A DNA stretch of 64,000 bases from Paraburkholderia sp. HP33-1. GTDB lineage: Bacteria > Pseudomonadota > Gammaproteobacteria > Burkholderiales > Burkholderiaceae. This document shows positions 24,244 through 59,074 of this stretch, one piece after another. Both the position numbers and the translations under genes were made by a program. The notes beneath the pieces were generated by a model. The model saw only the letters and a program-made list of their open reading frames with translations, did no database searches and was not told the DNA's origin. How positions within the stretch are numbered: the stretch's first letter is position 1; each line of letters begins with the position of its first letter. The stretch lies in contig NZ_JAJEJR010000003.1 of the NCBI RefSeq assembly GCF_021390595.1, positions 744,001 through 808,000 of the forward strand, read 5' to 3'.

Positions 24244-24288
24244 GGCAAGTCGAAGTATCTGGATACCGCCTGATTTGCTTTAACGAAG

Positions 24289-42806: not shown

Positions 42807-43002
42807 CGTTGATCCTCTTCTTATTGGTGGAATCAGCTGTTGCGGCAAGCAAGGTGCATCGCCACGCACCGTATTGTTTTCACGAAGCCTATGGTGAGAC
42901 GTGACTCCGGCAGCGGAGCGCCTTCCGCGCGAGATACGGATGCATCGGCTCCGCTGCTCATTAACGACCGATTTCCAATAACCTTGAGGCGGGTTATCTG
43001 CC
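42807..43002. other. Intergenic region upstream of the M48-like lipoprotein gene
   Basis: Holds the promoter and ribosome site of the minus-strand lipoprotein; no gene recognised. Confidence 0.4.
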
Positions 43003-43200
43003 TCAGTTCGGCTGCGCCCCCTCATGTTGCTGCGGAACGGCACCACCGATCTGCTTTGCCGTCGTCACCTGACCCGTCGTGAACGACCACGTCTGGTCGA
43101 TGGAGTACGCCTTGTCCGATGTCTGTACGCCCGTCGCATCGCGGCGCAGCACGCGCCCGGCTATAAGTTGAGCGTATAGGTGCTCTCGGAAATCACTAGT
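43003..43200 (-). pseudogene. 3' remnant of an unidentified gene
   Basis: On the minus strand a coding-like tail (GRVLRRDATGVQTSDKAYSI, then DQTWSFTTGQVTTAKQIGGA) ends at TGA 43003-43005. Immediately upstream the gene-like text ESTYTLNL continues in another frame, which points to a one- or two-base frameshift near 43165. No start or N-terminal part exists, as the ALDH operon begins at 43256 on the other strand. Family not recognised. Confidence 0.4.
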
Positions 43201-43255: not shown

Positions 43256-44692
43256 ATGATTGAATCACCCACCTCGCTATCCGAAGTACGACTGCTGATC
43301 GACGGCCATTGGACCGATGGCGGCGACCAGATGGCGGTCCTCGACAAATACCGTCTCACGCCCTGCGCAAGGCTGCACGTGGCCTCTCATGAGCAGGCGC
43401 GCGCCGCCGTAGCCGCGGCGCAGCGCGCGTTCGAAGCGTCGACGCTGACACCGTACGAACGCGGCGCCGTGCTCGAGCGCGCCGCGGCGATTCTCGAACG
43501 CGAGACGCCGAAGCTCGTTGCCGCATTGCAGACCGAGGGCGGGTTTACGCTCACGGATGCGCAAGGCGAAGTCCGGCGCTGCCTGCAAACCTTCCGGCTC
43601 TCTGCCGAAGAGGCGCGCCGGCTCGCCGGCGAGATGGTGCCGCTCGACGGCGCACCGCAACAAGGTGGCCGGCTCGGCTTCACGATGCGGGTACCGCTCG
43701 GCGTGGTCTGCGCCATCACGCCGTTCAACGCACCGCTGAACACGGTCGCGCACAAGGTGGCGCCGGCGCTCGCCGCAGGCAATGCCGTCGTGCTCAAACC
43801 ATCGACGCACACGCCCGCCATCGCGAACATGATGGCGTCGAGCCTGCTCGAAGCGGGCTTGCCGCCAGGACTCATCAACGTCGTCCACGGCGGCGCGGAT
43901 GTCGCCGGCTGGCTGATCGACGAACCGGCGGTGCGCTTTTTCGCGTTCACGGGCAGCACCGAGGTCGGGCGCTCGATCCAGCAGCGCGCCGGGCTGCGCC
44001 GCACGCAGATGGAACTCGGCAGCATCGCGTTTACCATCGTCGACGACGACGCGAACCTCGATCAGGCGCTGCCGAAAATCGTCGCGGCGAGCTACCGCAA
44101 GGCGGGTCAGGTCTGCACGTCGATCCAGACCTTGCTCGTGCATCGCAGCCGGATCGGCGAAGTGGAAGCGAGACTGAGCACACTGGTCAATGAACTGTGC
44201 TACGGCGACCCGAGCGAGCCGTCGACACTCGTCGGCCCGGTGATCAGCCTCGCGGCGGCCGAGCGCATCGAGCGCTGGATCGACGAGGCGGTGTGCCGCG
44301 GTGCGCGCCGGCTGGCAGGCGGTGCGCGCCAAGGCGCGCTGGTGCCGCCCACGTTGCTCGCCGACGTCGCTGCGGACACGCCGGTCAGTTGCAAGGAGGT
44401 ATTTGGGCCGGTGATGTCGCTGGTGCCGTTCGATACGCTCGACGAGGCTATCGACCTCGTCAATGCGACGCCATACGGTCTCGCCACGGGGCTCTTCACG
44501 AACCGCCTCGACGCGGCATTGAAGGCCGCGCGCCGGCTGCAGGTCGGCGGCGTGCACATCAACGAGACCTCGAGCTCGCGCGTCGATCTGATGCCCTACG
44601 GCGGCAGCAAGGATTCAGGCTTCGGCAGGGAAGGCCCGCACTATGCCGTGCGAGAGATGAGCGAAGAACGTTTGATCACGCTGAGTACATGA
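43256..44692 (+). CDS. Aldehyde dehydrogenase family protein
   Basis: A 478-residue NAD(P)-dependent aldehyde dehydrogenase. The catalytic cysteine is C287 (KAGQVCTS), the general base E253 (MELGS) and the oxyanion Asn N158 (PFNAPL); FTGSTEVG is the cofactor loop. The usual ELGG is ELGS here, a minor variation. ATG 43256 follows ACGGAG. It is the first gene of a ten-gene operon and lies 13 bp before a ThDP-dependent enzyme, which suggests it oxidises the aldehyde which that enzyme makes. Substrate not determinable. Confidence 0.9.
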   Translation: MIESPTSLSEVRLLIDGHWTDGGDQMAVLDKYRLTPCARLHVASHEQARAAVAAAQRAFEASTLTPYERGAVLERAAAILERETPKLVAALQTEGGFTLTDAQGEVRRCLQTFRLSAEEARRLAGEMVPLDGAPQQGGRLGFTMRVPLGVVCAITPFNAPLNTVAHKVAPALAAGNAVVLKPSTHTPAIANMMASSLLEAGLPPGLINVVHGGADVAGWLIDEPAVRFFAFTGSTEVGRSIQQRAGLRRTQMELGSIAFTIVDDDANLDQALPKIVAASYRKAGQVCTSIQTLLVHRSRIGEVEARLSTLVNELCYGDPSEPSTLVGPVISLAAAERIERWIDEAVCRGARRLAGGARQGALVPPTLLADVAADTPVSCKEVFGPVMSLVPFDTLDEAIDLVNATPYGLATGLFTNRLDAALKAARRLQVGGVHINETSSSRVDLMPYGGSKDSGFGREGPHYAVREMSEERLITLST

Positions 44693-44705
44693 AGGGGACG
44701 ACGCA

Positions 44706-46484
44706 ATGCCGATGATGAAAGGCGGTCAACTGATCGCCGAGACGCTGGTCAAGGAGAAGGTGCCCTATGTGTTCGGGATCTGCGGGCACGGCAATGTCGG
44801 CATACTCGATGCGCTGTACGACGTCCGCGACTCGCTGAAGCTGATCTCGCCGCGCCATGAGCAGTGCGCGGGACACATGGCCGACGCGTATTTCCGCGTC
44901 AAACACAAACCGGTGGCGACGCTCACGTCCACCGGACCGGGCTCGGCGAACATGGTGATGTCGCTCGCCACCGCCTTGTCGGACTCCTCGGCGTTCATGG
45001 CGATCACGGCCAACGTGCCGACTTCGCAGCATAATCGCGGGCCGTTCCAGGAGCTCTACCGCCACAATCAGGCCGACTTCGCCCAGGTGATGCGCCCGGT
45101 CGTCAAGCGCGCCTTCCAGCCCTCGCGCGTCGACATGCTTCCGCTCGCGCTGCGTCAGGCCATGGACACGATGGTGACGGGCCGCCCGGGCCCGGTGAAC
45201 CTCGACATTCCCTACAACGTGTTCCAGGAAGAGGCCGACGTCGAGCTGCCCCCGGCTTCGCAGCTCGGGCGGCCGGTGCGGCCCGGAGCGAGCGATGCGG
45301 ACGTTGCCGCGGTGCTGGAGCTGCTCGCCGCCGCGCGCAAGCCGGTGCTGTTCATCGGCCACGGCGCGACGCTTGCCGAGGCCGGCCCGGAGCTGACCGA
45401 GCTGCAGAAAACGCTGCACATTCCCGTCATCACGTCGCCGAACGGCATGGGCTGCGTGCCGGCGAACGACGCGCTGACGCTCGGTTTCATCGGCCGCAAC
45501 GGCGCTTATGCGGCGAACGAGGCAGGCCGTCACGCCGACCTCGTGATTACGATCGGCACGCGCTTCGACGACCGGTCGTCGTCGAGCTGGCATGCGGGTT
45601 ACTCGTGGAACTTCCCGAAGACGAAGCTCGTGCACGTCGATATCGACCCGACGGAGCTCGGCCGCAATTATGCGGCGACGATCGGCATCGTCGCGGACGC
45701 GAAGGTGTTCACGCGCCAGCTGCTGAACGCGCTCCCGCGCCACCCGGCGATCGAGGCGAAGCGCTACGCGCCGTGGACCGAGGAAGTGCTGGGCTGGGTA
45801 CGCCAGTGGGAGGCGTTCGTGCGCCCGCATTTCGGCGATTCGACGAGCCCCCTGCGGCCGGAGTTCGTCGTCGGTACGTTGCAGAAAACCCTGCCCGACG
45901 ACGTGATCCTTTCGCTCGATTCGGGTGTCCATCACAACTGGTTCATGCAGTTCTGGAAGCCGGCGCGCGCGCAAAGCATGTTGAACAGCTGGGGCTATTC
46001 GTCGATGGGCTTCGGCGTGTGCGGCATCCTCGGCGCGCAGCTTGCGGCGCCTGACCGGCCGTGTGTCGCGGTGGTCGGCGACGGCGGCTTCACGATGACG
46101 CCGTACGTGCTTTGCACGGCAGTCGAATACGAGCTGCCGGTCGTCTGGATCATCTGGAACAACTTCGCGTGGGGCGCGATTCGCGATCTGCAGTACGGCC
46201 TGTTCGACGGCCGCGAGATCGGCACCGCTTTCTACAAGGGGCAATCGGGCGAGCGCTACAACCCGGACTTCGCGGCGTGGGCGCGTGCTTGCGGTGCGGA
46301 CGGAGTGACCATCACGCGGCCTCAGGATCTTGGCAATGCGGTCGAGCAGGCGCTTCGCAACCGGCGACCGTGTGTCATCGACGTGCACGTCGACGCCGAG
46401 GTCAGGCCGCCTTCGACCGGAACCTGGCAATTGCCGCCGATTCCGTACAAAGAGCCGGTCTACGGCAAACCCTACATCGCATAG
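44706..46484 (+). CDS. Thiamine-diphosphate-dependent enzyme, acetolactate-synthase-like
   Basis: A 592-residue ThDP enzyme with the three standard domains. The activating glutamate is E52 (SPRHEQCAGHMAD). The PP/Mg site is G458-D-G-G to N485-N486 (VVGDGGFTM, WIIWNNFAWG). The middle domain (GHGATLAEAG, IGTRFDDRSS) could bind FAD or ADP as in acetohydroxyacid synthases. No regulatory small subunit is present and ilv genes are absent, so biosynthesis is unlikely. Relatives include C-C lyases and the diketone hydrolases IolD and cyclohexane-1,2-dione hydrolase. The true reaction is open. Confidence 0.85.
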   Translation: MPMMKGGQLIAETLVKEKVPYVFGICGHGNVGILDALYDVRDSLKLISPRHEQCAGHMADAYFRVKHKPVATLTSTGPGSANMVMSLATALSDSSAFMAITANVPTSQHNRGPFQELYRHNQADFAQVMRPVVKRAFQPSRVDMLPLALRQAMDTMVTGRPGPVNLDIPYNVFQEEADVELPPASQLGRPVRPGASDADVAAVLELLAAARKPVLFIGHGATLAEAGPELTELQKTLHIPVITSPNGMGCVPANDALTLGFIGRNGAYAANEAGRHADLVITIGTRFDDRSSSSWHAGYSWNFPKTKLVHVDIDPTELGRNYAATIGIVADAKVFTRQLLNALPRHPAIEAKRYAPWTEEVLGWVRQWEAFVRPHFGDSTSPLRPEFVVGTLQKTLPDDVILSLDSGVHHNWFMQFWKPARAQSMLNSWGYSSMGFGVCGILGAQLAAPDRPCVAVVGDGGFTMTPYVLCTAVEYELPVVWIIWNNFAWGAIRDLQYGLFDGREIGTAFYKGQSGERYNPDFAAWARACGADGVTITRPQDLGNAVEQALRNRRPCVIDVHVDAEVRPPSTGTWQLPPIPYKEPVYGKPYIA

Positions 46485-46588
46485 CGGTCCATCACGACAT
46501 CAGCACAGCGTCGCAGCAGCAGGGAAGTACCCGGGCGTCCGCGCAATACCAACTGGCGGGCGGACCATCATAAAACAAGGAGACAACC

Positions 46589-47821
46589 ATGAAGTTCCGG
46601 AATCCGCGCGCGCGGGTAGGGTTTCGTTCGCTCTTCGCCATCGCAACAGGTCTCGCATTCAGCGCCGCAGCATTCGCACAGGGCAATGACCCGGTGCGGA
46701 TCGGGCTTATCTATTCGAAGCAGGGGCCCGGCGCGTCGATCGGCCAGTTCCTCGAGCGCGGCAGCGAAGTGGCGGTCGAGCAGGCCGGTGGGAAAGTCCT
46801 TGGCAGGCCGATCGAACTCGTCTGGCTCGACGAAGCGAACCCTCAGGTCGCGCAGCAGAACATGCAGAAGCTGATCGGCGAAAACAAGGTGGTCGCGGTA
46901 GTCGGCGGCAACTACAGCTCCTCCGCGCTCGCGATGATGAGCGTCGCGAACCGCGAGAAGATTCCGCTGATCCTGCCCGGCGCCGCCGCGCGCGAGATCA
47001 CCGGCAAGGAGTGCAGCCGCTACACGTTCCGCACCCAGGCAACCGTGCCGGTGCAGATCGCGGGCCTGATGCCGTACCTTGCGCAGACCGGAAAGAAGGT
47101 CTACTTTGTTACGCCATCCTATGCATTTGGTCAGGACATCCTGCGCGCCGCGCGCGACCGGCTCAAGCAGGACGGCATGACGGAAGTCGGTGTCGACGAA
47201 GTGCCGATCAATACCGCCGACTACAGTTCCTACATACTCAAGATCCGCCAGGCAAAGCCGGACGCCGTGCTGGGCGGCCTCGTCGGCGGCGACTTCTCGA
47301 ACTTCCTCAAGCAATGGAACGAGATGGCGATGACGGGCAAGATTCCGTACGTGGCCGTCGCGGTGACCGACACCGACTTCTGGGACGTGGGGCCGCAGGC
47401 ATCCACCGGCACCTTCGTGAAGCCCTGGTACTACAACAACCCGAAGAACCCCGAAATCGAGAAGAAGTTCACCGCCGACTTCGAGAAGAAATACGGCCGT
47501 CCTCCGTCGGACAAGTCATGGTCGGGCTGGATCGCCATGCGCTCGCTGCTTGACTCGATCAACGCGGCGAAGTCGACGGACCCGCAGGCGATCGTCACCC
47601 AGCTCGAACAGTGGAAGGACACCGACGGCGCCTTGCCGGTCTACTACCGTCCGTGGGATCACCAGCTGATTCGCCCATCCGTGGTCGTGAAAGTGAAGTC
47701 GAAGATCACCGACAAATACGACTATTTCGACGTGGTGCGCGATACCTCGAGCACGTCGGCCGATACCGAAAAGGCGTTCGGCAGCCAGCAGGAGATCGGC
47801 TGCAAGATGCCGGCGCTGTAG
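46589..47821 (+). CDS. Periplasmic binding protein of a HAAT-family ABC importer
   Basis: A 410-residue solute-binding protein. The signal peptide ends at FAQG (about residue 31). The mature part starts DPVRIGLIYSKQGPGASIGQFLERG and has the type I fold of amide/aromatic-acid HAAT proteins (FVTPSYAFGQDILRAARDRL, GGLVGGDFSNFLKQWNEM). AAGGAGA precedes the ATG. It lies between the ThDP enzyme and the permeases of the same operon. It presumably binds the compound that the operon degrades. Confidence 0.88.
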   Translation: MKFRNPRARVGFRSLFAIATGLAFSAAAFAQGNDPVRIGLIYSKQGPGASIGQFLERGSEVAVEQAGGKVLGRPIELVWLDEANPQVAQQNMQKLIGENKVVAVVGGNYSSSALAMMSVANREKIPLILPGAAAREITGKECSRYTFRTQATVPVQIAGLMPYLAQTGKKVYFVTPSYAFGQDILRAARDRLKQDGMTEVGVDEVPINTADYSSYILKIRQAKPDAVLGGLVGGDFSNFLKQWNEMAMTGKIPYVAVAVTDTDFWDVGPQASTGTFVKPWYYNNPKNPEIEKKFTADFEKKYGRPPSDKSWSGWIAMRSLLDSINAAKSTDPQAIVTQLEQWKDTDGALPVYYRPWDHQLIRPSVVVKVKSKITDKYDYFDVVRDTSSTSADTEKAFGSQQEIGCKMPAL

Positions 47822-47852
47822 CGGCCGCGCCATCGCCCAACCAGGAGCCATC

Positions 47853-48722
47853 ATGCTCGATATGCTCGTTTCCCAATCGGCCAACGGACTCGTGTTGGGT
47901 TTTATCTACGTGCTGATCGCCGTGGGCCTGTCCATCACGTTCGGTCTGCTGGGCGTGATCAATTTCGCACACGGCGCTTTCTTCGCATTGGGGGCTTATG
48001 TCGCGTACCAGCTCTTTCAGATGTACGGCTGGCCCGCGGTGGTGTTCGCCCCCATTCTCGTCGGCGTGATCGGCATGGTCGTCGAGATGACGATCATCCG
48101 GCGGCTATACGGCAAGGAGCCGCTTTCCAGCCTGATCGTAACGTTCGCGCTTTCGCTGCTGATCGAGGCGCTGATCCGTTTCTTCTGGGGCGCTGACGGC
48201 AAGCCGTTCAATCAGCCCGAATTCCTCGCGGGCATCGTCGAGGCGGGACCGCTGCTCATCACGAAATATCGCGTGGCGGTCCTGTTCGCGACGCTCGGCA
48301 CGTTGGTCGCGCTTGCAGCATTTCTGGCGTGGACGCCGTATGGGCGGGTCCTGCGCGCCGGCAGCCGCGACCCGGAAATGGTCCAGCTGCTCGGCATCAA
48401 TCTGCCGCGAGTGATGACAGGCGTATTCGGGCTCGGCTGCGCGCTCGCGGCGATTGCAGGCGTGCTGGCCGCGCCGTTGTGGACCGTGTCGCCCTCGATG
48501 TCGCAGAACGCGATCATGCCGGCGTTCGTCGTCGTCGCGATCGGCGGTCTCGGATCGTTTGCCGGTGCTGTCGTCGCCGGGCTGGCGGTCGGCGTCGTGA
48601 TGTCACTGACGATTCAGTTCCAGCCGGATGCGGCGGCGGCGTCGATGTATGCGCTGATGTTCGTCGTCATGCTGCTGCGTCCACGCGGGTTGTTTGGAGA
48701 ACATTGGGAGCGCTTCGAATGA
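47853..48722 (+). CDS. ABC permease, LivH type
   Basis: A 289-residue inner-membrane permease with about eight helices and the LivH core (GLLGVINFAHGAFFALGAYVAY; GRVLRAGSRDPEMVQLLGIN). AGGAGCC precedes the start. Its stop overlaps the start of the fused LivMGF gene by four bases (ATGA). Pairs with the LivM part of the fusion. Confidence 0.9.
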   Translation: MLDMLVSQSANGLVLGFIYVLIAVGLSITFGLLGVINFAHGAFFALGAYVAYQLFQMYGWPAVVFAPILVGVIGMVVEMTIIRRLYGKEPLSSLIVTFALSLLIEALIRFFWGADGKPFNQPEFLAGIVEAGPLLITKYRVAVLFATLGTLVALAAFLAWTPYGRVLRAGSRDPEMVQLLGINLPRVMTGVFGLGCALAAIAGVLAAPLWTVSPSMSQNAIMPAFVVVAIGGLGSFAGAVVAGLAVGVVMSLTIQFQPDAAAASMYALMFVVMLLRPRGLFGEHWERFE

Positions 48723-51328
48723 ATCTGCGCACGAATACGACTAGTTCCGCCGCCGCGCAGCCGAACGCGCACGCGCGGAACCTGCTGCGCCCGTGGCGCA
48801 ATCCGGTCATCGTGATGGCCGTGGTGCTGATCGCCGGCTCGGCTCTCGCGCTGGCCATCGGCCTGCCGATCGACCGCATTACGCAGATCGCGATCTATAC
48901 ACTTTATGCGGCGGGCACCAATTTCCTGATCGGCTATCTCGGCCTCGTGCCGTTCGGCGCCTCGTTCTTTTTCGGCTGCGCAAGCTATGCGCTGGCGATT
49001 GCGTCGGCAGCCTGGGGCGGCAACGAGATCACGGGCGTGCTGATCGGCATGGGCTTTTCCCTGCTGCTCGCGCTCGTGATCGGCGCGCTGATCCTGCGCC
49101 GCAAGGGCCTCTATTTTTCGCTGCTGACGCTGGCGTGTTCCCAGATCGCTTTCGAGATCGCGTACAAGTGGACTTCGGTCACGGGCGGCGAGAACGGCAT
49201 GCAGAACGTCGCGCGTCCGTTGTTCGCTTCGGCGCTGTCGTTTCACGCGTTCACGGTCGTGGTCGTGCTTGCCGCGACGTGGTTGCTCTGGCGCATCGCG
49301 CATGCCCCGTTCGGCCGGCTGATGCAGGCGCTGCGCGACAACGAGCAACGCGTGACCAGTCTCGGCTACGACGTCTATACGACGCGCCTGATCGCACTGG
49401 TCGTCGCGGGCGGCGTGATCGGCGTGGCGGGCGGTCTGATGGCGCTGCTGTTGCAGGGTGTGTACGCCAACAACCTGAACTGGTCGCATGCCGGTGACCC
49501 GGTGCTAATGGCTGTGCTGGGCGGTGTCCATCAGTTCCTCGGCCCGCTGTGGGGCGCGGTGACTTTCATCGTGCTCGAAGATCGGCTGAGCGCCATCACC
49601 GAAAACTGGTGGCTGTTCTTTGCGCCGGTCATCATCGTCATGGCGCTGCTGTCGCCGGAAGGCATTCAGGGATTCTGGCAACGCTTCGGCAAGCGTCCGC
49701 GCTGGACGCTCACGCGTCACGGCATTCCCGCGCGTCCGGCGCGTATCGTGCCGTACCGGCCAGCCGATGCAGGCGGCGACGAAGGCGAGGCCGTGCTCTC
49801 GGTGCAGCAGTTGTCGAAGCGGTTCGGCTCGATCGTCACGCAAAGCGAGATTTCGCTCGACGTCAAGCGCAATCAGCTGCACAGCTTCATCGGACCGAAC
49901 GGCGCGGGCAAGACGACGTTCTTCAACATCCTGACGGGTTTCATCCTGCCCGATGAAGGCCGCATCGTCTTCGAGGGCAGCGACATCACACGGTTGTCGC
50001 CGCACAAGCGCGCGCGTCTTGGCCTTGCGCGCTCGTTCCAGATCCTGAGCGTGTTTCCGAACCTGAGCGCGTTCGAAAACGTGCGTGTCGCCGTGCAGGC
50101 CGCGCGGCGTCAATGGCGCGGTTTCTGGCTCGACGCCTACGCGGACGACGAAGCGAACGAACGTGTCTGGTCGCTGCTCGAGGCGGTCAGTCTCGCGGAT
50201 CGGGCCGCCGACCTGTGTGCGGAGCTGTCCCACGGCGAGAAGCGGTTGCTCGAAATCGCCATGACGCTCGCGACCAGCGCGAAGCTGCTGCTGCTCGACG
50301 AACCGCTTGCCGGCCTCGCTGAAGCGGACCGCAAGATCGTCGCCGCGTTGATCCGGCGCCTCGCGAACTCGCACGCGGTGCTGCTGATCGAGCATGACAT
50401 CGATCGCGTGCTGGCACTGTCAGACCGCATCACGGTTCTGCACCAGGGCCGCTTGATCGCCGACGGTTTGCCGGCGGACGTGGCACGCGACCCTCAGGTG
50501 ATCAGCGCGTATCTCGGTGACGCCGGCGCGTCGGACCAGGACAGGCACAAGGAGACCACGGCCAGCGGCAGCTTGCCGGCAGCCGCGCAGCCCACGGGAC
50601 GCCCACTGCTGGAGCTAGAGAAGGTGAGGGCAGGCTACGACGGCAGCACCGTACTCGAAGGCATCGACCTTTGCATCTATCCGGGAGAAGTCGTCGCACT
50701 GCTTGGCCGCAATGGCGTGGGCAAGACGACCCTGCTGCGCACGATCACGGGAACGCTGCACGCGGCGAGCGGCCGTGTGACGTTCGATGGCAACGACGTC
50801 ACGTCGATGCGTCCGGATCTTATCAACCGGCTCGGCATCTCGCTGGTGCCCGAAGGGCGGCGGCTGTTCCCGAACCTCACGGTGCAGGACAACCTGAAGA
50901 TCGGCGCGCGTGCCGGCGGTGCGCCGCTCGACGAAATCTGCGAGCTGTTTCCGAAGCTGCGCATCCTGATGCGTTCGCAAGCGGCGAGTCTGTCCGGCGG
51001 CGAGCGGCAGATGGTGGCGATCGCCCGTGCGCTGATGGTGCCGAGCAGGCTGATTCTGCTCGACGAGCCGTTCGAAGGGCTCGCACCGGCGGTCGTGCAC
51101 GAGGTCCGGCAAGCCGTCATGAAGCTGACGTCGCGAGCAAGTCTCGTGATCGTGGAGCACCAGGCGGATTCGGTGCTCGCATCGGCGGACCGTGCCTATG
51201 TGCTCGTGAACGGTGCCGTCGCGTTTGGCGGCAGCGCGTCGGAGCTTGCGGCTGACACCGCGCTGCAGGAGCGGCTGCTCGGCGTGTCGGCCGCCGACAC
51301 GGAACACCTTTTGAGGAAGACCGCGTGA
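48719..51328 (+). CDS. Fused ABC importer subunit: LivM permease + LivG ATPase + LivF ATPase
   Basis: One uninterrupted 869-residue frame. Residues 1-325 are a LivM permease (GYLGLVPFGASFFFGCASYA; ALRDNEQRVTSLGYD). Residues 355-602 are a LivG ATPase (Walker A GPNGAGKT 392-399, signature LSHGE 503, Walker B LLLLDEP 523). Residues 628-869 are a LivF ATPase (Walker A GRNGVGKT 663-670, LSGGE 758, Walker B LILLDEP 778). The linkers are about 30 residues, Pro/Arg/Ala-rich. ATG 48719 overlaps the livH stop. The wider frame from 48329 runs through livH. LivM-LivG fusions are known; a three-way fusion is less usual. Confidence 0.92.
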   Translation: MNLRTNTTSSAAAQPNAHARNLLRPWRNPVIVMAVVLIAGSALALAIGLPIDRITQIAIYTLYAAGTNFLIGYLGLVPFGASFFFGCASYALAIASAAWGGNEITGVLIGMGFSLLLALVIGALILRRKGLYFSLLTLACSQIAFEIAYKWTSVTGGENGMQNVARPLFASALSFHAFTVVVVLAATWLLWRIAHAPFGRLMQALRDNEQRVTSLGYDVYTTRLIALVVAGGVIGVAGGLMALLLQGVYANNLNWSHAGDPVLMAVLGGVHQFLGPLWGAVTFIVLEDRLSAITENWWLFFAPVIIVMALLSPEGIQGFWQRFGKRPRWTLTRHGIPARPARIVPYRPADAGGDEGEAVLSVQQLSKRFGSIVTQSEISLDVKRNQLHSFIGPNGAGKTTFFNILTGFILPDEGRIVFEGSDITRLSPHKRARLGLARSFQILSVFPNLSAFENVRVAVQAARRQWRGFWLDAYADDEANERVWSLLEAVSLADRAADLCAELSHGEKRLLEIAMTLATSAKLLLLDEPLAGLAEADRKIVAALIRRLANSHAVLLIEHDIDRVLALSDRITVLHQGRLIADGLPADVARDPQVISAYLGDAGASDQDRHKETTASGSLPAAAQPTGRPLLELEKVRAGYDGSTVLEGIDLCIYPGEVVALLGRNGVGKTTLLRTITGTLHAASGRVTFDGNDVTSMRPDLINRLGISLVPEGRRLFPNLTVQDNLKIGARAGGAPLDEICELFPKLRILMRSQAASLSGGERQMVAIARALMVPSRLILLDEPFEGLAPAVVHEVRQAVMKLTSRASLVIVEHQADSVLASADRAYVLVNGAVAFGGSASELAADTALQERLLGVSAADTEHLLRKTA

Positions 51329-52209
51329 TGGCGGCGGCACGAGAGGGCGCGCGGCCGCTCGGCGTGAACACTTACGGCTATATCTGGTCGACGCCAGCGC
51401 AGCAATGTGTGCTCCGGCTGGGCGAACTGGGCTACCGTGAGTTCGAGCTGGTGCTGAATCCGCCGCATCTCGCACTCGAAGAATTCCCGTCCGGCGAACG
51501 CGCAAAACTGCGCAGCACGATGGCGGCGGTTGGCTTGAGCGTGCGTTCGCTGAACGTGCCGAGCCTAGATCACAACCTGGCGAGCCCGATGCGCCGCATG
51601 CGTCGCTATTCGATCGATCTGTTTCTCGACGCGATCGATCTGGCGGCGGATCTCGGCGCAACCGATCTCGTTGTCGTGCCCGGCCGCATGAGCCCATTGT
51701 TTGCGCCGCTGCCCGCGCAGCGCGATGCATGGATGCGCGAGTCGCTCGACGCGCTGTTGCCGCACGCGCAACGGCGGGGCGTGACACTCGCGCTCGAAAA
51801 CGTGCCGTTCGCGTCGTTTCCCGATGCGCACACGCTCGGCGCGTTCGTAAGCAGCTACGGGTCGGATTCGCTCGGCGTTTGCTATGACGTCGCGAATGCG
51901 CATTTCATCGGAGAGTCGCCGGGCGCCGGCCTGCGGCAGTTGGGCGAGCTGGTCCGCCTCGTGCATTTGTCCGACACCCGCCGCGACGCGTGGCGCCATG
52001 ACGAGGTTGGCCTTGGCGACGTGCCGTTCGCGCAGGTGCACGACGCCCTCACAGACATTCACTTCGAAGGTGCTTGCATGCTTGAAATCATCGCGGCCGC
52101 GCCGGAAGGCGCGATCCTCCGTAGCCACCGCGCGTTGACGGCATTCGGCTTCGCGCCCCAGTACGACCAGCAGCATTTGCCTGCCGGCTTGCCCGGCTTC
52201 GAGAACTGA
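51328..52209 (+). CDS. Xylose-isomerase-like TIM-barrel protein (sugar phosphate isomerase/epimerase)
   Basis: A 293-residue TIM barrel of the AP-endonuclease-2 / IolE / IolI superfamily. Metal-ligand candidates are E in LALENVPF, D in CYDVANAHF, H in VHLSDTRRDAWRHDE and E in MLEIIAAA. Members isomerise or dehydrate sugars, inososes and hydroxypyruvate. The start is ATG 51328 or GTG 51325, overlapping the fusion-gene stop, so it is translationally coupled. In this operon it may isomerise a keto intermediate. Confidence 0.84.
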   Translation: MAAAREGARPLGVNTYGYIWSTPAQQCVLRLGELGYREFELVLNPPHLALEEFPSGERAKLRSTMAAVGLSVRSLNVPSLDHNLASPMRRMRRYSIDLFLDAIDLAADLGATDLVVVPGRMSPLFAPLPAQRDAWMRESLDALLPHAQRRGVTLALENVPFASFPDAHTLGAFVSSYGSDSLGVCYDVANAHFIGESPGAGLRQLGELVRLVHLSDTRRDAWRHDEVGLGDVPFAQVHDALTDIHFEGACMLEIIAAAPEGAILRSHRALTAFGFAPQYDQQHLPAGLPGFEN

Positions 52210-52211
52210 CC

Positions 52212-52634
52212 ATGACGACCATCATTCCCGACGACAAACATTACCGGAACGCGGCGAAGGAACAGCAGGCCGTGACGCGCAACCTCGCCGAGTTGCTGTG
52301 GGTGCAGTATCCGGGCCACTTCAACCAGGCGCTATCGAAAGCGATCGTGACGCCGGAGACGGTCGGCAGCCGCTTCTTCGATCACCGGATTTCCTGCTAC
52401 GAGCCAGGCGCTTACGTCGAGAATCACGTGCATAAAGTGCAGGAGCAGATCTATCACGTGCTATCCGGCGAGGGCGTGCTAACGGTCGATGGCGAGCGCC
52501 GTCTGGTTCGCGCCAATGACGTGACCTACATCCCGCCTGGCGTGCATCACGAATTCCATTGCACCGGCACCGACACGCTGGTGTTTCTGGTGATCACGAG
52601 CCCGCCCACCGACGAGGAGCCGCAGCCGCGCTGA
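52212..52634 (+). CDS. Cupin-domain protein
   Basis: A 140-residue single-domain cupin. Motif 1 is EPGAYVENHVHKVQEQIYHVLSGEG with the His-x-His and Glu metal ligands; motif 2 is IPPGVHHEFHCTG. Metal-binding cupins serve as isomerases, dioxygenases or sugar-acid binding proteins. It starts two bases after the TIM-barrel gene, so co-translation is likely. Its exact reaction is unknown. Confidence 0.86.
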   Translation: MTTIIPDDKHYRNAAKEQQAVTRNLAELLWVQYPGHFNQALSKAIVTPETVGSRFFDHRISCYEPGAYVENHVHKVQEQIYHVLSGEGVLTVDGERRLVRANDVTYIPPGVHHEFHCTGTDTLVFLVITSPPTDEEPQPR

Positions 52635-52656
52635 GGCGGCACGACGAGACACGACG

Positions 52657-53646
52657 ATGAAAAATATTCTGGTAACCGGTGCGAGCGGCTGGCTTGGCAC
52701 CGAAATCGTGAAGGCATTGCTCGCGCGCGGCGACGCCGTCGTCGGCACCGATATCGCGATCAGCCCGGCAACGGCCGCGCTCGCGGCGCGCCAGCCGAAC
52801 TTCACGGCAATCGCCGCGGATCTGTGCGAGTGGCCCCAGGTGCTGCGCCTGATGCAGACGCACAGGCCTGACGCGGTGATCCACGCGGCGGCGATCGTCG
52901 GCGTGATTCAGTGCGCCGATATTCCGATCAAGGCGAATCGCGTGAACGTGGAGGGTGCCCTCAACCTGTTCGAGGCGATGCGCTTGACGGGCGTGAAGCG
53001 CGTCGTGCATGTCAGCACCGAGGAAACCTACGGCGATTTCGGCGCGCCGTCGATCGATGAGGAGCACGCGCAAAACCCCACCAGCGTGTATGGCGCGACG
53101 AAGCTGGCGGTCGAGCATTACGGCCGCATCTACACGCGCGAGCACGGGCTCGAATGCCTCAATGTGCGCACCTGCTGGGTGTACGGACCGCATCTGCCGC
53201 GGCTGCGCGTGCCGCGCACTTATGTCGAAGCCGCGTTGCGCGGCGAGACGCTGCATGACCCGGACGGCGCGGATTTCGCCGTCGATCAGGTTTATGTCGA
53301 CGATACCGTCGCAGGCTTGCTGCTCGTGCTCGACAAGCCGGTGCATCGCTTCGACAGCTACAACATTGCAACGGGCGCCGCACCAACGATCGCGGACATC
53401 GCAGCGGCCGTCAACCGCACGATCCCGGGTGCGCGCATCAGTGTGGGCAGCCGTGGGCCATATCGTCATGGCGGCAGGGTGCTCAGCGCGAAGAAGGGCG
53501 CGCTCGACATCAGCCGCGCGCGCGCCGAACTCGGATACGAGCCGCGTTACGACCTGCAACGCGGCATCAAGGCAACCGTCGAGGCCACCCGCACCGCGCT
53601 CGCGCGTCAGGGTGCGGGGGCCGAATCGCTTTCAACCGGAGACTAG
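52657..53646 (+). CDS. NAD-dependent epimerase/dehydratase
   Basis: A 329-residue extended SDR. The cofactor motif is GASGWLG (8-14), D32 (GTDIAI) prefers NAD, and the catalytic pair is Y145-x-x-x-K149 (YGATKLAVE) after HVSTEETYGDF. The C-terminal half (VRTCWVYGP) resembles sugar-nucleotide epimerases, though such enzymes also act on free sugar acids. In the middle of the catabolic operon, 22 bp after the cupin gene. Confidence 0.88.
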   Translation: MKNILVTGASGWLGTEIVKALLARGDAVVGTDIAISPATAALAARQPNFTAIAADLCEWPQVLRLMQTHRPDAVIHAAAIVGVIQCADIPIKANRVNVEGALNLFEAMRLTGVKRVVHVSTEETYGDFGAPSIDEEHAQNPTSVYGATKLAVEHYGRIYTREHGLECLNVRTCWVYGPHLPRLRVPRTYVEAALRGETLHDPDGADFAVDQVYVDDTVAGLLLVLDKPVHRFDSYNIATGAAPTIADIAAAVNRTIPGARISVGSRGPYRHGGRVLSAKKGALDISRARAELGYEPRYDLQRGIKATVEATRTALARQGAGAESLSTGD

Positions 53647-53648
53647 CA

Positions 53649-54392
53649 GTGAACGAAAACAGACAACTCGCACTCGTGTTTGGCGGCTCGCGTGGCATCG
53701 GCGCCGCGTGTGTGGAAGCGCTCGTGCGCGATGGCATGGACGTCGCATTCACCTATACGGCCCAGGCCGAAGCGGCCCGTGAGCTGGAAGGCAAAGCCGA
53801 TGCGCATGGCTCGCGCATTCGCGGGTATCAAGTGGACATTCGCGATGCCGCGGCCGTCGATGCCGTCTGCCGCGACGCCGTGCGCGACTTCGGCCGTCCG
53901 TTGCAGGTGGTGATCGCGAACGCTGGCATCAACGTTCCGCCCGCGCCGCTCGCGCAGTTCGGCGACGCCGACTTCCAGCGTCTCGTCGAGGTGAATATCG
54001 TTGGCGCGTTTCACGTGCTGCGCGCAGCCGCGCGCGAGGTGAGCGACGGTGGCGCGATCGTCGCGCTCACCACCTCGCTTGTGCGTCACGCCGTGCCGGG
54101 CGTCGGTCCGTACAGTGCGACCAAGGCCGCCGTCGAGTGCCTGGTGCGGTCGATGTCGAAGGAACTCGCATCGCGCACGGTGCGTGTGAATGCAGTCGCA
54201 CCGGGGCCAGTCGATACCGACCTGTTCCGCGCGGGCAAGACCGACGAAGCGATGCAGCGCTCCGCCGCGATGAGCCCGATGAACCGTGTCGGCCAGCCGG
54301 CTGAAGTGGCCGAAGTCGTCTCGTTCCTCGTGTCGGCGAAGGCCTCGTGGGTCAACGGTCAGATCGTCCAGGCCAACGGCGCGCTCGTCTGA
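53649..54392 (+). CDS. Short-chain dehydrogenase/reductase
   Basis: A 247-residue classical SDR, GTG start two bases after the previous stop. Cofactor motif GGSRGIG (12-18), NAG (91-93), S143, Y155-x-x-x-K159 (YSATK). SPMNRVGQPAEVAEVVSFLVSAKASWVNGQ is the usual FabG-like C-terminus. Likely oxidises a secondary alcohol of the imported compound or reduces a ketone. Part of the ten-gene operon. Confidence 0.9.
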   Translation: MNENRQLALVFGGSRGIGAACVEALVRDGMDVAFTYTAQAEAARELEGKADAHGSRIRGYQVDIRDAAAVDAVCRDAVRDFGRPLQVVIANAGINVPPAPLAQFGDADFQRLVEVNIVGAFHVLRAAAREVSDGGAIVALTTSLVRHAVPGVGPYSATKAAVECLVRSMSKELASRTVRVNAVAPGPVDTDLFRAGKTDEAMQRSAAMSPMNRVGQPAEVAEVVSFLVSAKASWVNGQIVQANGALV

Positions 54393-54410
54393 GCGCGAGG
54401 AGCGCAAGCC

Positions 54411-55931
54411 ATGCTGACACCGAATCGACGCTTTGCGCCGGCAGACGAAACCGTCGACGTGCTGGTGGTCGGCGGGGGCGGCGCGGGACTCGCGGCGGCG
54501 ATCGAGGCGGCGGAATCCGGGGTGCGCGTCGTCTTGCTCGAGAAAAACGACGCGCCGGGCGGCTCGACGGCGTGGTCGATCGGCTCGGTGAGCGCGTCGC
54601 AAACACCGCATCAACGCGCCCAGGGTATCGCTGACACGCCGCAAGCGCATTGGGAGGACATGCCGGGCTTCGCGGGCGAGCTCGCCGGGCGCGACAACGA
54701 CGCCTTGCGCCGCATGCTGTGCGACGCGATGCCCGAGACGTTCCAGTGGCTGCTCGACAGCGGCGTGCGGTTCATGGGGCCCATGCCGGAGCCGCCGCAT
54801 CGCGTGCCGCGCATGCACAACGTGCTGCCGAACTCGCGCTCGTTCATCTATCACCTGACGCGGCGCGCACGCCGTGCTGGCGTCGAGATTCGCGTGAGCA
54901 CACGTGTGTCGGAACTCGTGGTCGAAGATGGACGCGTGCGCGGCGTGCTGGCCGGGCGCGACGGTGGCGCGCAGCGACGCATCGATGCGCGCGGCGGCGT
55001 CATTCTCGCCGCAGGCGACTTCACCAACAGCCCGGAGCTGAAGGCGCGCTTCATGGGGCCGCAGGAGGCGAAGGTCGCCGCGGTCAATCCTGGCGCGACC
55101 GGGGACGGTCAGCTGCTCGCGGAGCGTTGCGGCGCGCAAATCGTCAACGGCGATCTCGCACTCGGCCCTGAAATCCGCTTTATTGCGCCGGTGAAGGAGA
55201 ACTTCATCCGCCGGCTGCCACCGTGGCGCTCGCTCGCGGCGCTCATGCAATGGTCGATGCGGCATGTGCCCGATGCGATCCTGCGCCCGTTTCTCATGAA
55301 GTTTTTGACGACGGCGCTCGCACCGTCGCTTTCGCTGTTCGAAGACGGCGCGGTGCTGGTCAATGCGCGCGGCGAACGTTTTGGCGAGGAGACCGACCGG
55401 CCTGCCTATCGCTTGCCGGATCAGCCGGACGGCGTCGGCTATATCGTGATCGACGGACGTATCGCCGAACGCTATTCGCAATGGCCGCATTTCATCTCGA
55501 CGGCGCCGGGCGTCGCCTACGCCTATCTGGCCGATTACCGCCGCAACCGGCCGGACGTCTATCGGGAAGCGCAAACCGTCGATGAACTGGCCGCGCTCAC
55601 CGGCATGTCCGCGGCCGCGCTGCGTGAAAGCATGGGTGGACCGAAGGCGCTCACGCGGGCGCCGTTCATCGCGCTCGGCCCGGTGCGCGCGGTATTCGTG
55701 CACGCGGAGGGCGGCTTGCGGGTCGACGAGCAACATCGCGTGCTCGATGCGAGCGGACAGCCGATTGCAGGGCTCTTTGCGGCGGGATCGACGGGGCAGG
55801 GCGGGCTGCTATTGAAGGGGCACGGCCATCACCTGGCGTGGGCGTTCGCATCCGGCCGGCGCGCGGGAAGGTTGGCCGCAATCGCGGCTCGTCAGGAATC
55901 CGCAGCGATGAGTCGAGCCGCAACGGCGTGA
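54411..55931 (+). CDS. FAD-dependent oxidoreductase (ketosteroid-dehydrogenase / fumarate-reductase flavoprotein type)
   Basis: A 506-residue flavoprotein. The FAD Rossmann motif is VVGGGGAGLAAAIEAAESG (about 20-38), followed by EKNDAPGGSTAWSIGS. The C-terminal FAD part is LFAAGSTGQGGLLLKGHGHHLAWAFASGRRAG. The layout (alpha/beta cap with ILAAGDFTNSPELKARFMG) matches the FAD_binding_2 group that includes 3-ketosteroid dehydrogenases and tricarballylate dehydrogenase. It may introduce a double bond next to a carbonyl. GAGGAG precedes the ATG. Last gene of the operon; the convergent LysR gene ends 18 bp later. Confidence 0.87.
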   Translation: MLTPNRRFAPADETVDVLVVGGGGAGLAAAIEAAESGVRVVLLEKNDAPGGSTAWSIGSVSASQTPHQRAQGIADTPQAHWEDMPGFAGELAGRDNDALRRMLCDAMPETFQWLLDSGVRFMGPMPEPPHRVPRMHNVLPNSRSFIYHLTRRARRAGVEIRVSTRVSELVVEDGRVRGVLAGRDGGAQRRIDARGGVILAAGDFTNSPELKARFMGPQEAKVAAVNPGATGDGQLLAERCGAQIVNGDLALGPEIRFIAPVKENFIRRLPPWRSLAALMQWSMRHVPDAILRPFLMKFLTTALAPSLSLFEDGAVLVNARGERFGEETDRPAYRLPDQPDGVGYIVIDGRIAERYSQWPHFISTAPGVAYAYLADYRRNRPDVYREAQTVDELAALTGMSAAALRESMGGPKALTRAPFIALGPVRAVFVHAEGGLRVDEQHRVLDASGQPIAGLFAAGSTGQGGLLLKGHGHHLAWAFASGRRAGRLAAIAARQESAAMSRAATA

Positions 55932-55948: not shown

Positions 55949-56953
55949 TCAAGTTTCCGCGTCGTGCAACGAAAGGTCGTGAAGCTCGATGTCTTCGGGC
56001 TCGGGCAGATCGTGCGGCAACATCAGTTGCACGCCTTGCCACTCGTGGCGCTCGATCAGCATCCGGATCACGTGCTTGAGCTCGTCGCGAACGATGACCG
56101 CCGCCTGCGACAGCTTTTCCGGCGCAAGCGCGTAAAGGTAGTTGCGCCGAACCATCTGTGCGTCGGAGATGCGCAGGCAGCGCCATTGTTCCGGCGCGTT
56201 CTGCAGCGCGTGCACAGCGGCCATCGGCTTGATCGTCGCGCCGATGCCGTCCGCCACGCAGTGCATGAGCAGCGGCAACGAGTCGATTTCCGCGACCGCT
56301 TCGACGCACAGGTTCATGCGGTCGAACTCGATCGTGATGCGCCGGCGCAGTCCGTGGCCGGGGCTCGGCAGGATGAGCGGCAGCTTCGCCAGCTCGCTCA
56401 GCGTAACGTCGGTGCGATGCGGCGAGATCATCTGGCTGTCGCGCGGCACGATCACGAACAGTTCTTCTTCGAGCAGAGACTCGACGGGCAGGTCAGGCGC
56501 AGCGGTCGCACTGAAGAGAATCGCGAGATCGAGTTCACCGAGGCGCGTCATGTGTTCGAGGTGCCCCGACAGCGCCTCGACGACGTTCAGCACGATGCCC
56601 GGGTACTTCGCCCTCAGATGCTTGATGAGGGGCAGCCCGAGTGCGCAGACGGTGGTGGGCGCCATCCCCAGATTCACGCGGCCGCTCACGTTCGCGTGAT
56701 CGCGGCGCGCGACCGACACGGCCAGATCGAGCTGACGCAGAATGAAGCGCGCGTGATGGTAAAGCGCCTCGCCGTTCTCGGTCGCCCGGACACCGCGCGA
56801 AGAGCGCACCAGCAACGGCCTGCCGACTTCCTCTTCGAGGCGGGTCATCTGCTGGCTGAGCGCCGGTTGCGCGATGAAGAGCTGCCGCGACGCTTTCGAG
56901 AGACTGCCGCTCTCGACAATCTGTACGAAGTACTTCAGCTGACGCATGTCCAT
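55949..56953 (-). CDS. LysR-family regulator (first of three related copies)
   Basis: A 334-residue regulator. HTH at residues 1-60 (LKYFVQIVESGSLSKASRQLFIAQPALSQQMTRLEEEVG). The effector domain has VNLGMAPTTVCALGLPLIKHL and VVEALSGHLEHMTRLGELDLAILF. It is closest to NAC/TcuR-like regulators. Convergent with the long catabolic operon and divergent from the second LysR gene. Confidence 0.88.
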   Translation of the reverse strand: MDMRQLKYFVQIVESGSLSKASRQLFIAQPALSQQMTRLEEEVGRPLLVRSSRGVRATENGEALYHHARFILRQLDLAVSVARRDHANVSGRVNLGMAPTTVCALGLPLIKHLRAKYPGIVLNVVEALSGHLEHMTRLGELDLAILFSATAAPDLPVESLLEEELFVIVPRDSQMISPHRTDVTLSELAKLPLILPSPGHGLRRRITIEFDRMNLCVEAVAEIDSLPLLMHCVADGIGATIKPMAAVHALQNAPEQWRCLRISDAQMVRRNYLYALAPEKLSQAAVIVRDELKHVIRMLIERHEWQGVQLMLPHDLPEPEDIELHDLSLHDAET

Positions 56954-57014
56954 GTCTCATCCCTGCGCGGCGCGTCGGATGTGCCGCATGTCTTTCGTTC
57001 ACCGAATGCAACCC

Positions 57015-58013
57015 ATGTCGACAGCAAATCTGGATTTTGCCGATGAAGACCCGCTCGATCTGCCTATCGAACTGCGGCAGATGAGGTTCTTCGTGCGGGT
57101 AGCCGAATCGGGCAGTATAAGGCGAGCTGCATCGGAATTGGGCGTGGCGGCGTCGATGCTGAGCCGCGACCTGGAGAAGCTCGAAGCGCAACTCGCGACG
57201 CCGCTGTTTCGTCGCGCGCGCACGGGGCTTATTCCAACCGATGCGGGATTCGCCTTTTTGCGCCATGCGCAAATGACCCTGCAGCACGCGCTCGACGCGG
57301 TGGAGGCGGCGCGGCACCGGCGGCTCGTCGGGCACGTCACGGTCGGCTTGCCGCCGAGCACCGCCTCGGTGCTCGGCATGCCGTTGCTGTTGGCAATGCG
57401 CGAGCGTCATCCCGAGCTGCGCGTGCATCTGGTCGAAGCCTTGTCGGGGCATTTGAGCGCGATGCTCGACGCGCGTCAGCTCGATCTGGCATTGGTCGCG
57501 CGCGGCAATGTCATGCGGCGCTGGAGCCTGTGGCCGCTAATAGAGGAACGCGTCTACCTGCTCGCTCGCGCCGACCTCGCTGGCCTTCCGCAATCGAGCA
57601 CGCTGAGCCTGGCCGATCTCGGCGAGCTGCCGCTCGTCATGCCGAGCGGCTCGCACGGACTGCGCGCGATCCTCGACATCGCATTTGAGCGCGCGGGCGT
57701 GCGGCCGAATATCAGCCTCGAAATCGACGGCCTCGCATTGCTGATGGACGCCGTTCGCGCGGGGCTTGGTGCAACCCTGCAGCCGGGCTCGGTGATCTGC
57801 CGCGATCCGGGCCGCCAGTTGCGGGCACTGCTGGTCAGCGACTCCGATGCGCGCCGTCAGACGTTGATCGCGGGACGTCACGAGGACGAGCTTTCACCCG
57901 CGGTGCTAGCTACGCGCGTGGTGATCGCCGACGTGGCGCGCGAGCTGGCCGCGACTGAACGCTGGCCGGGTACCCTGTTTCATGAATTGAGCCCGAAGGG
58001 CGACGAATCATGA
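57015..58013 (+). CDS. LysR-family regulator (second copy)
   Basis: A 332-residue regulator (start uncertain; ATG 57015 chosen, ATG 57006 and further upstream starts are open). The HTH begins near residue 18 (LRQMRFFVRVAESGSIRRAASELGVAASMLSRDLEKLE). The effector domain VTVGLPPSTASVLGMPLLLAM and LVEALSGHLSAMLDARQLDLALV is very similar to both neighbours. Divergent from the copy at 55949, tandem with the copy at 58109. Confidence 0.86.
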   Translation: MSTANLDFADEDPLDLPIELRQMRFFVRVAESGSIRRAASELGVAASMLSRDLEKLEAQLATPLFRRARTGLIPTDAGFAFLRHAQMTLQHALDAVEAARHRRLVGHVTVGLPPSTASVLGMPLLLAMRERHPELRVHLVEALSGHLSAMLDARQLDLALVARGNVMRRWSLWPLIEERVYLLARADLAGLPQSSTLSLADLGELPLVMPSGSHGLRAILDIAFERAGVRPNISLEIDGLALLMDAVRAGLGATLQPGSVICRDPGRQLRALLVSDSDARRQTLIAGRHEDELSPAVLATRVVIADVARELAATERWPGTLFHELSPKGDES

Positions 58014-58108: not shown

Positions 58109-59074
58109 ATGGAACTCAGACAACTACGCTATTTCCTCAGCGTCGTGGAACACGGCAGCATGGGAAAGGCCGCGCTGGAACTCGGCGTCGTCACTTCCGC
58201 GCTGAGTCAGCAGATCAGCCGTCTCGAAGGCGAACTGTCGACTCGCCTCCTGCAACGCACCTCCAGCGGCGTCGTGCCGACCGACGCCGGTCTCGCGTTC
58301 TGGCGTCAGGCACAACTGGCGCTGCGCCATATCGACGATGCCGCGCTCGCCGCGCGTGCCGCCCGGCTCTCGGGCCACGTCAGTGTCGGCATGGCGCCCA
58401 GTACCGCCAGCGTGCTCGGCGTCGCCTTCATGCAGGCCATGCGCGCGCGCTATCCCGATGTGCGCCTGCGCATCGTCGAAAGCCTCTCCGGATATCTCGC
58501 CTCGATGTTGAGCGCACGCCAGATCGACCTTGCCGTGCTGTTCCGCGCGGAGCCCGCGCAGCGCTGGAGCGTGGTGCCGCTGCTCGACGAACGGCTCTTC
58601 GTGATCGGCCGGCACGAGCTCGAAGGCATGCCGTCCGGCGCGAACGTCCGTCTCGGGCAACTCGGCAAGCTTTCCCTCGTGCTTCCGAGCAGCGCGCACG
58701 GCCTGCGCTCGCAGCTGTCCGCCGCGTTCAAGCGTGCCAGATATGAGCCCAACATCGTGGCCGAAGTCGACGGCCTCGCGCTGCTGATGGACTTCGTGCG
58801 CACGGGCTGCGCCGCGACCATCCAGCCCGGCGCCGCGCTGGCACGGCCGGAGAACGCGGTACTCGCAAGCGTGCCCGTGACTGAGAGCTACGCTACGCGG
58901 CCCAATATGCTCGCCAGCATCTCCGACGACGAGCTTTCGCCCGCGGGGCTCGCGGCGCGCGTGGTGCTTGCCGATGTCACGCGCGAGCTCGTGCGCGAAG
59001 GCCGCTGGCCCGGCGCGCGCCTGCGTGAGGCCGAAGGCTTCACGAAAAGTGAAGACCTGTTGACGGCCCGCTGA
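58109..59074 (+). CDS. LysR-family regulator (third copy), likely regulator of tcu genes
   Basis: A 321-residue regulator. HTH LRYFLSVVEHGSMGKAALELGVVTSALSQQISRLEGELS at residues 4-42; effector domain VSVGMAPSTASVLGVAFMQAM and IVESLSGYLASMLSARQIDLAVLF. It precedes the tricarballylate genes by 52 bp on the same strand, where TcuR-type regulators are usual, although TcuR is often divergent from tcuABC. No clear ribosome site is seen at ATG 58109. Confidence 0.87.
   Translation: MELRQLRYFLSVVEHGSMGKAALELGVVTSALSQQISRLEGELSTRLLQRTSSGVVPTDAGLAFWRQAQLALRHIDDAALAARAARLSGHVSVGMAPSTASVLGVAFMQAMRARYPDVRLRIVESLSGYLASMLSARQIDLAVLFRAEPAQRWSVVPLLDERLFVIGRHELEGMPSGANVRLGQLGKLSLVLPSSAHGLRSQLSAAFKRARYEPNIVAEVDGLALLMDFVRTGCAATIQPGAALARPENAVLASVPVTESYATRPNMLASISDDELSPAGLAARVVLADVTRELVREGRWPGARLREAEGFTKSEDLLTAR

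Follow-up and report, generated by a model that had tools for sequence, protein, structure and literature searches.

A conserved gene island of Paraburkholderia sp. HP33-1 that may connect ring cleavage of an alicyclic acid to tricarballylate dehydrogenase

Introduction

What is the substrate of a gene cluster in which an importer, a thiamine diphosphate (ThDP) enzyme and a series of oxidoreductases stand side by side? The question is raised by a stretch of 64,000 nucleotides from Paraburkholderia sp. HP33-1 (contig 3, positions 744001-808000, of a 7.35 Mb genome in four contigs), hereafter the window. Ten genes at window positions 43256-55931 encode an aldehyde dehydrogenase (ALDH), the ThDP enzyme, a Liv-type importer, a xylose-isomerase-like TIM barrel, a cupin, an extended short-chain dehydrogenase (SDR) of the epimerase/dehydratase class (EPI), a classical SDR and a flavoprotein. 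An earlier note on this DNA read them as a ring-opening or polyol pathway in which the ThDP enzyme cleaves a diketone. The set does have the look of a catabolic unit equipped with an importer, and the pathway interpretation as a whole is partly supported by the comparisons reported here. Our own reading, to which we give a little less than an even chance, is that the genes belong to a conserved island of soil bacteria that imports an alicyclic acid, cleaves its ring and feeds the tricarballylate-oxidising proteins TcuAB. The tcu genes, overlooked in the earlier note, are on our best reading part of the island's story.

The ten genes form a conserved unit

All ten open reading frames (ORFs) are intact, lie on the forward strand and contain 0 internal stops. 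The spacing from the ALDH to the flavoprotein gene is, in order, 13, 104, 31, -4, -4, 2, 22, 2 and 18 bp, with the 4-bp overlaps falling at LivH/LivM and LivF/TIM. The gene list first drawn up for this region, with gaps of 2-104 bp or overlaps, is therefore accurate, and Pfam agrees with the protein classes given there; what escaped notice is that LivM, LivG and LivF are fused in one ORF.

A profile search of genome contigs with the TIM barrel yielded 31 loci (handles beginning with L), to which plasmid searches added annotated examples. For counting we chose 38 loci, the window included, whose ThDP proteins are at least 60% identical, and set the presence threshold for each gene ourselves. 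Repeats of one genome were excluded (L016, L073, L074, L078 and L080 among them), as were stretches that were too short or lacked the ThDP gene (L019, L032, L040 and L079, for example); some close kin remain (L031/L049, L046/L048, L107/L108). The earlier note had made its interpretation depend on the gene set being conserved together, and so it is: ALDH is present in 34 of the 38 loci, the cupin in 33, the TIM barrel and a LysR regulator in 29 each, EPI and the SDR in 28 each, each Liv gene in 23 and the flavoprotein (FAD) in 11, along with two genes that the window has lost, FAD3 (32) and EPI1 (27), and with TcuA (17) and TcuB (14). Because many stretches stop at contig ends or at 20 kb, true presence may exceed these counts. 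Sixteen loci (L030 onward) are rearranged; of these, 12 have ALDH, 11 the cupin, 14 either of the two flavoproteins, 8 the TIM barrel and one (L104) an importer of the window's type.

Identical gene order recurs within Burkholderiaceae and across several families of alphaproteobacteria. On plasmid pMNOD01 of Methylobacterium nodulans, for example, the existing annotation runs ALDH, ThDP enzyme, binding protein, permease, fused ATPase/permease, TIM barrel, epimerase-type oxidoreductase, cupin, a further epimerase-type oxidoreductase, SDR and flavoprotein, followed by an opposite-strand GntR gene, tcuA and tcuB. The closest relative among the loci of the TIM search, that of Burkholderia sp. H160 (L013), is 90% identical in the TIM barrel and 98% in the ThDP enzyme, and dN/dS between it and the window is 0.00-0.21 for all ten genes. 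Such recurrence of order across families, together with these ratios, demonstrates that the ten genes form a conserved unit, beyond what chance would produce. The ThDP gene is uncommon: matches with an E value of 1e-150 or better occur in 8 of the 144 genus genomes, in 4 of 398 from the family and in 2 of 274 from the class.

The ThDP enzyme carries an IolD-like motif

A critical issue is the reaction catalysed by the ThDP enzyme. All 58 of the 58 aligned rows (identity 44-100%, repeats of one locus included) have a histidine at residue 28, within the motif GHG; an excerpt of PMC3534367 numbers this site 28 as a standard position. The longer motif GHGNV of the window's enzyme occurs at this site also in IolD of Rhizobium Q54 and in the IolD of the present genome, which is encoded by a separate gene and is 56% identical to annotated IolD; judging from these two proteins, GHG(N)V near residue 28 is probably typical of IolD. 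Among seven other ThDP enzymes of the genome, five align at the site, none with histidine there (0 of 5), and two remain unaligned; in one of the five, L003, a histidine stands one residue after the site. By residue number, His28 would correspond to the histidine altered in a variant of cyclohexane-1,2-dione hydrolase (CDH), H28A_N484A, which according to an excerpt of PMC12247030 couples pyruvate with ketones. The proposal of IolD- or CDH-like diketone cleavage thus gains a candidate marker, GHG with His28 common to IolD, which backs the idea more directly than gene names do. Against this must be set an overall identity to IolD of about 27%; the curated IolD model lies outside the 25 of 52 NCBIfam families listed for the protein.

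Might the enzyme instead be a decarboxylase or carboligase, of the acetolactate-synthase or BbmA type, with no ring cleaved at all? BbmA and plant acetolactate synthases are its closest solved relatives, and an alignment to these shows that the RHEQ glutamate and the GRPGPV stretch are kept. Both relatives, however, have glycine where all 58 rows have histidine, and among the 25 of 52 families listed the protein reaches no acetolactate-synthase cut-off, scoring 394.5 bits where the large subunit (TIGR00118) requires 538.35. We regard a decarboxylase or carboligase as very unlikely.

The island is associated with tricarballylate dehydrogenase

Beyond the ten genes lie genes for TcuA and TcuB. 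As an excerpt of PMC10468695 has it, the oxidation of tricarballylate to cis-aconitate is catalysed by TcuA, with TcuB as its quinone oxidoreductase. The window's TcuA is the sole place in the genome to exceed the NF006130 cut-off.

Evidence that the neighbourhood is meaningful is both statistical and positional. Within the genus, TcuA exceeds the cut-off in 61 of 144 genomes: in 8 of 8 with the ThDP gene and in 53 of 136 lacking it (Fisher p = 7.8e-4), and in five of the eight (G000, G309, G354, G378, G401) it lies at most 15 kb from the ThDP gene. HpaE, an unrelated and commoner catabolic gene taken as control, shows no excess (6/8 versus 107/136 over its cut-off). In the order to which Tardiphaga robiniae (L027) belongs, sampled by 397 genomes, TcuA is present in 21 of the 25 genomes with the ThDP gene and in 64 of the 372 others (p = 6.3e-12); with three previously known genomes removed, 18 of 22 ThDP-positive genomes have it (p = 3.8e-10). 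Thirteen of the 25 ThDP matches in the order are at least 60% identical, and TcuA is present in 10 of those 13 genomes. It also lies in the examined stretch of ten loci from alphaproteobacteria or the order of L027 (L023, L025-L029, L039, L044, L109, L110).

Further evidence comes from a tree of 34 TcuA proteins, 14 cluster-linked and 20 standalone (L101-L116, repeats and fragments left out; four standalone rows, L093-L096, are from ThDP-positive genomes). The cluster label changes five times, at least four of these changes being forced by supported branches. Cluster-linked TcuA therefore occurs in several lineages, which indicates that different tricarballylate dehydrogenases adjoin the island. 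Where the cluster sequence extends 2.4 kb or more beyond TcuB, which is so in eight loci (L019, L020, L023, L027, L028, L029, L039, L044), no homologue of the major facilitator superfamily (MFS) transporter was found in it, TcuC elsewhere in those genomes not having been sought; this fits tricarballylate that is made inside the cell.

Several observations weigh against the connection. TcuA lies apart from the ThDP gene in G350, G366 and G384, three of the eight genomes of the genus, and four ThDP-positive genomes of the order (G483, G523 and G541, with ThDP identities of 62-63%, and G587, with 44%) lack a TcuA match. The co-occurrence tests ignore kinship and genome size. Moreover, L083, whose genome lacks the ThDP gene, has a TcuA 97% identical to the window's, and the window's tcu genes resemble an ordinary standalone LysR-tcuA-tcuB-MFS unit, so that in the window itself the neighbourhood could be accidental. 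One could accordingly suppose that the tcu genes are an independent operon, that the unit ends in another central metabolite, and that the link reflects gene-rich, versatile genomes; the nesting of the window's TcuA among standalone rows and the commonness of TcuA in the genus would be as expected. Proximity in five of eight genus genomes and in ten further loci, the several TcuA lineages involved and the control without excess argue the other way, and we consider an independent operon rather unlikely.

A proposed pathway from an alicyclic acid to cis-aconitate

We infer a pathway whose substrate, ring, individual steps, step order and tricarballylate intermediate are all conjectural. A small carbon-ring acid would be taken up by the Liv-type ABC importer; enzymes of the SDR class and flavoproteins like 3-ketosteroid dehydrogenase (KSTD) would carry out oxidation and desaturation of the ring, which the TIM barrel and cupin would isomerise. 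The ThDP enzyme, in the manner of IolD or CDH, would then hydrolyse the bond joining two neighbouring ring carbonyls, the ALDH would oxidise the freed aldehyde to tricarballylate or a close tricarboxylate, and TcuAB would convert the tricarboxylate to cis-aconitate for the tricarboxylic acid (TCA) cycle. That the substrate is an acid fits the Antarctobacter variant of the cluster, in which a tripartite tricarboxylate transporter replaces the Liv importer.

The main rival is a neutral cyclitol, degraded in parallel to myo-inositol catabolism (inosamine or rhizopine, methyl-inositol, deoxy-inositol) by an IolE-like TIM barrel, an IolD-like ThDP enzyme and the cupin, with TcuAB as an unrelated frequent neighbour. 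The GHG motif shared with IolD suits it, and so do genes near three of the variants, which are inositol- or rhizopine-like and count against an acid: iolD-iolE-iolB and an inositol dehydrogenase a short way from the Rhizobium Q54 variant on its plasmid; near the Aminobacter variant, genes for a ferredoxin, a desaturase and a reductase, a set that we take to resemble rhizopine moc genes; and, near that of Antarctobacter, genes for inositol monophosphatase and glycerophosphodiesterase. By Pfam, however, the window's set holds neither a Gfo/Idh inositol dehydrogenase nor an IolB-type cupin, and a cyclitol explains neither the co-occurrence with TcuA nor the tricarboxylate-type importer of Antarctobacter. 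We consider it unlikely, while taking it seriously. Of the two versions first offered, ring opening or polyol, it is the polyol version that leaves the link to tricarballylate dehydrogenase unexplained.

Can the acid be named? A bolder form of our proposal, unlikely in our estimate, is a C7 carbocyclic acid of the shikimate family lacking the C1 hydroxyl, opened by an O2-independent, non-aromatising cleavage. Oxidation at C3, C4 and C5, hydrolysis of the vicinal dione by the ThDP enzyme and loss of C4 would give exactly propane-1,2,3-tricarboxylate (tricarballylate), which TcuAB would oxidise to cis-aconitate. By the same scheme quinate would yield citrate and shikimate aconitate, so that a role for TcuA needs the saturated acid with hydrogen at C1. 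This carbon count is reasoning rather than evidence. Genes for type II 3-dehydroquinate dehydratase within the Antarctobacter and Ponticoccus variants fit a C7 skeleton.

Genes of this dehydratase type lie at L046 19812-20279, L048 3195-3662, L050 25225-25698 and L051 7520-7972, positions that cover both those within the Antarctobacter and Ponticoccus variants and those near TIM homologues (about 39%) on two Sinorhizobium plasmids. The Aminobacter variant (Aminobacter sp. MSH1 pUSP3, L047 3463-32563), on a plasmid typed as conjugative, carries a polar-amino-acid-type importer, a second ThDP enzyme, the ferredoxin/desaturase/reductase set and a formaldehyde-type dehydrogenase, and this content may point to a methylated or amino-substituted substrate. 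Genes for RraA/LigK-type aldolases occur near the cluster in Roseibium and Neorhizobium (L039 1482-2141, L045 28792-29466); with the threshold applied, neither of them matched any locus but its own.

The window holds a reduced form of the set

The window is a reduced version of a larger set, from which FAD3 and EPI1 have been lost. FAD3, a KSTD-like flavoprotein, lies upstream of ALDH in all eight Burkholderia-type loci other than the window (L013, L014, L015, L017, L018, L035, L075, L077), with the binding-protein gene between the two in L018. In the window its last codons survive: homology to L013 begins at 43138, and the remnant frame reads IAAQHAPGYKLSV before the stop, compared with IAAQHALGYKLSV and stop in L013, whose FAD3 matches at 113-1810. 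No close FAD3 was found among the eight best TcuA-family matches of this genome (top 41%), the rest of the genome not having been searched with FAD3. EPI1, a second epimerase, follows the TIM barrel in relatives and is gone from both the window and L013. The junction falls within a TCGGCTTCG(C/T)GCC repeat, which in L014 is present both at the end of the TIM gene and near the end of EPI1.

Since the EPI1 deletion is common to L013, and given the dN/dS ratios between the two loci, the ten remaining genes were kept under purifying selection once EPI1 had gone. The loss of FAD3 is the later event. Flux here may depend on enzymes that replace FAD3 and EPI1, or may be impaired, and a pathway drawn from these ten genes alone may consequently lack steps.

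Directly upstream of the FAD3 remnant is an ORF of 500 amino acids (41544-43046, reverse strand) with no Pfam match. It could be a frame of GC-rich DNA that encodes nothing, or it could belong to the event by which FAD3 was lost. Two copies of a sequence of about 167 bp, 77% identical, lie at 37668-37834 and 40747-40913, and one of them overlaps the ORF start of a TraT-family gene at 37761-38732.

Features of the locus

Table 1. Features of the island and its surroundings, in window positions (+, forward strand; -, reverse strand)
Feature	Position	Strand	Basis or remark
FAD3 remnant, last 13 codons and stop	43138..43179	+	Homology to L013
ALDH	43256..44692	+	PF00171, 466 bits; lactaldehyde/phosphonoacetaldehyde-dehydrogenase-like
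ThDP enzyme, proposed cyclic 1,2-dione hydrolase	44706..46484	+	PF02776/00205/02775
Periplasmic substrate-binding protein (SBP), Liv/Urt type	46589..47821	+	PF13458
LivH/UrtB-type permease	47853..48722	+	PF02653
LivM permease, LivG ATPase and LivF ATPase, one fused ORF of about 869 aa	48719..51328	+	Translation; PF02653 and two PF00005 stretches
Xylose-isomerase-like TIM barrel	51325..52209	+	Residues from about 270 are the tail of lost EPI1
EPI1 deletion scar, last 25 EPI1 codons in frame with TIM	52132..52206	+	Window and L013 compared with L014
Small cupin (Cupin_2)	52212..52634	+	PF07883; protein 100% identical in L013
EPI	52657..53646	+	PF01370
Classical SDR	53649..54392	+	PF13561
FAD_binding_2 flavoprotein	54411..55931	+	PF00890; distant from TcuA, flavocytochrome c and KSTD
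LysR-type regulator, cluster-associated	55949..56953	-	Named by similarity to the LysR at 58109 (counterparts 38-40%); present in 29 of the 38 loci
Second LysR regulator	56946..58013	+	PF00126/PF03466; directly before TcuA in L014, L015, L017, L018
LysR regulator, TcuR position	58109..59074	+	PF00126/PF03466; homologue before TcuA in 20/20 standalone loci
TcuA, tricarballylate dehydrogenase	59127..60536	+	NF006130, 781 bits (cut-off 369)
TcuB, 4Fe-4S electron-transfer protein	60472..61740	+	NF011607, 707 bits (cut-off 524)
MFS transporter, TcuC position	61789..63108	+	PF00083/PF07690; homologue after TcuB in 19/20 standalone loci

Family models give little further help with individual proteins. 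The ALDH is under every cut-off among the 25 NCBIfam rows listed (NF040648, 400.6 against 650), and the flavoprotein has a top NCBIfam score of 148 bits against a cut-off of 369 and falls under that of the KSTD model (NF009478, 143 bits against 789). The best solved matches of the binding protein are 3i09, 4maa and 4ey3. In alphaproteobacterial loci the counterpart of the cluster-associated LysR gene is upstream of ALDH and divergent. Two starts in the tcu region lie later than those of the ORFs given: that of the second LysR gene probably at about 57,066, since the helix-turn-helix match begins at residue 43, and that of TcuB, whose model match also runs from residue 43.

A Liv fusion ORF of about 830-870 amino acids (or longer as read) is common to many related loci; in Azospirillum argentinense and Neorhizobium petrolearium the components are separate genes. 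A second Liv-type importer, also of separate genes, lies at 20861-25464 on the reverse strand of the window and is 26-43% identical to the one studied here.

Discussion

If our reading is correct, the island, carried by plant-associated and marine proteobacteria on plasmids and on larger contigs, would allow an alicyclic compound to enter the TCA cycle. The wide distribution of tricarballylate dehydrogenase would also be easier to understand, although free tricarballylate is, in our view, an uncommon growth substrate. Were the C7 form true, the dehydrogenase would gain a role in a pathway of plant matter. The substrate should be within reach of a small screen, since one end of the route is constrained by the binding protein and the other by the tricarboxylate.

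The kinds of enzyme are known already. Our searches of openly licensed literature, as far as the opening parts of abstracts show, brought up no recognisable description of such an island, of this combination and its coupling to TcuAB, or of such a route into the TCA cycle. The nearest parallel is myo-inositol catabolism, composed as IolG-IolE-IolD-IolB-...-IolA. Like it, the island unites a TIM barrel, a ThDP enzyme with GHGNV, a cupin and an ALDH; unlike it, the island has extended SDRs and KSTD-like flavoproteins, and the Pfam results of the operon proteins include neither a Gfo/Idh inositol dehydrogenase nor an IolB-family cupin.

With CDH the enzyme of the island has in common the ThDP fold and a His28 that bears the number of the residue changed in CDH_H28A_N484A (excerpt of PMC12247030), whereas its match to CDH is weaker, at 158 bits. 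The enzymes of cyclohexanecarboxylate (Chc) metabolism are the counterpart of FAD3 of relatives and of the SDR, which match the ChcC2 and ChcB2 models distantly, with 448 of 900 and 144 of 350 bits, far under the cut-offs. Finally, there is tcuRABC, described in the excerpt of PMC10468695 as an operon for imported tricarballylate. TcuA and TcuB beside the island exceed the curated cut-offs of that system; here, in contrast, they are tied to a ring-type catabolic island, and at other loci they stand without an MFS homologue beside them.

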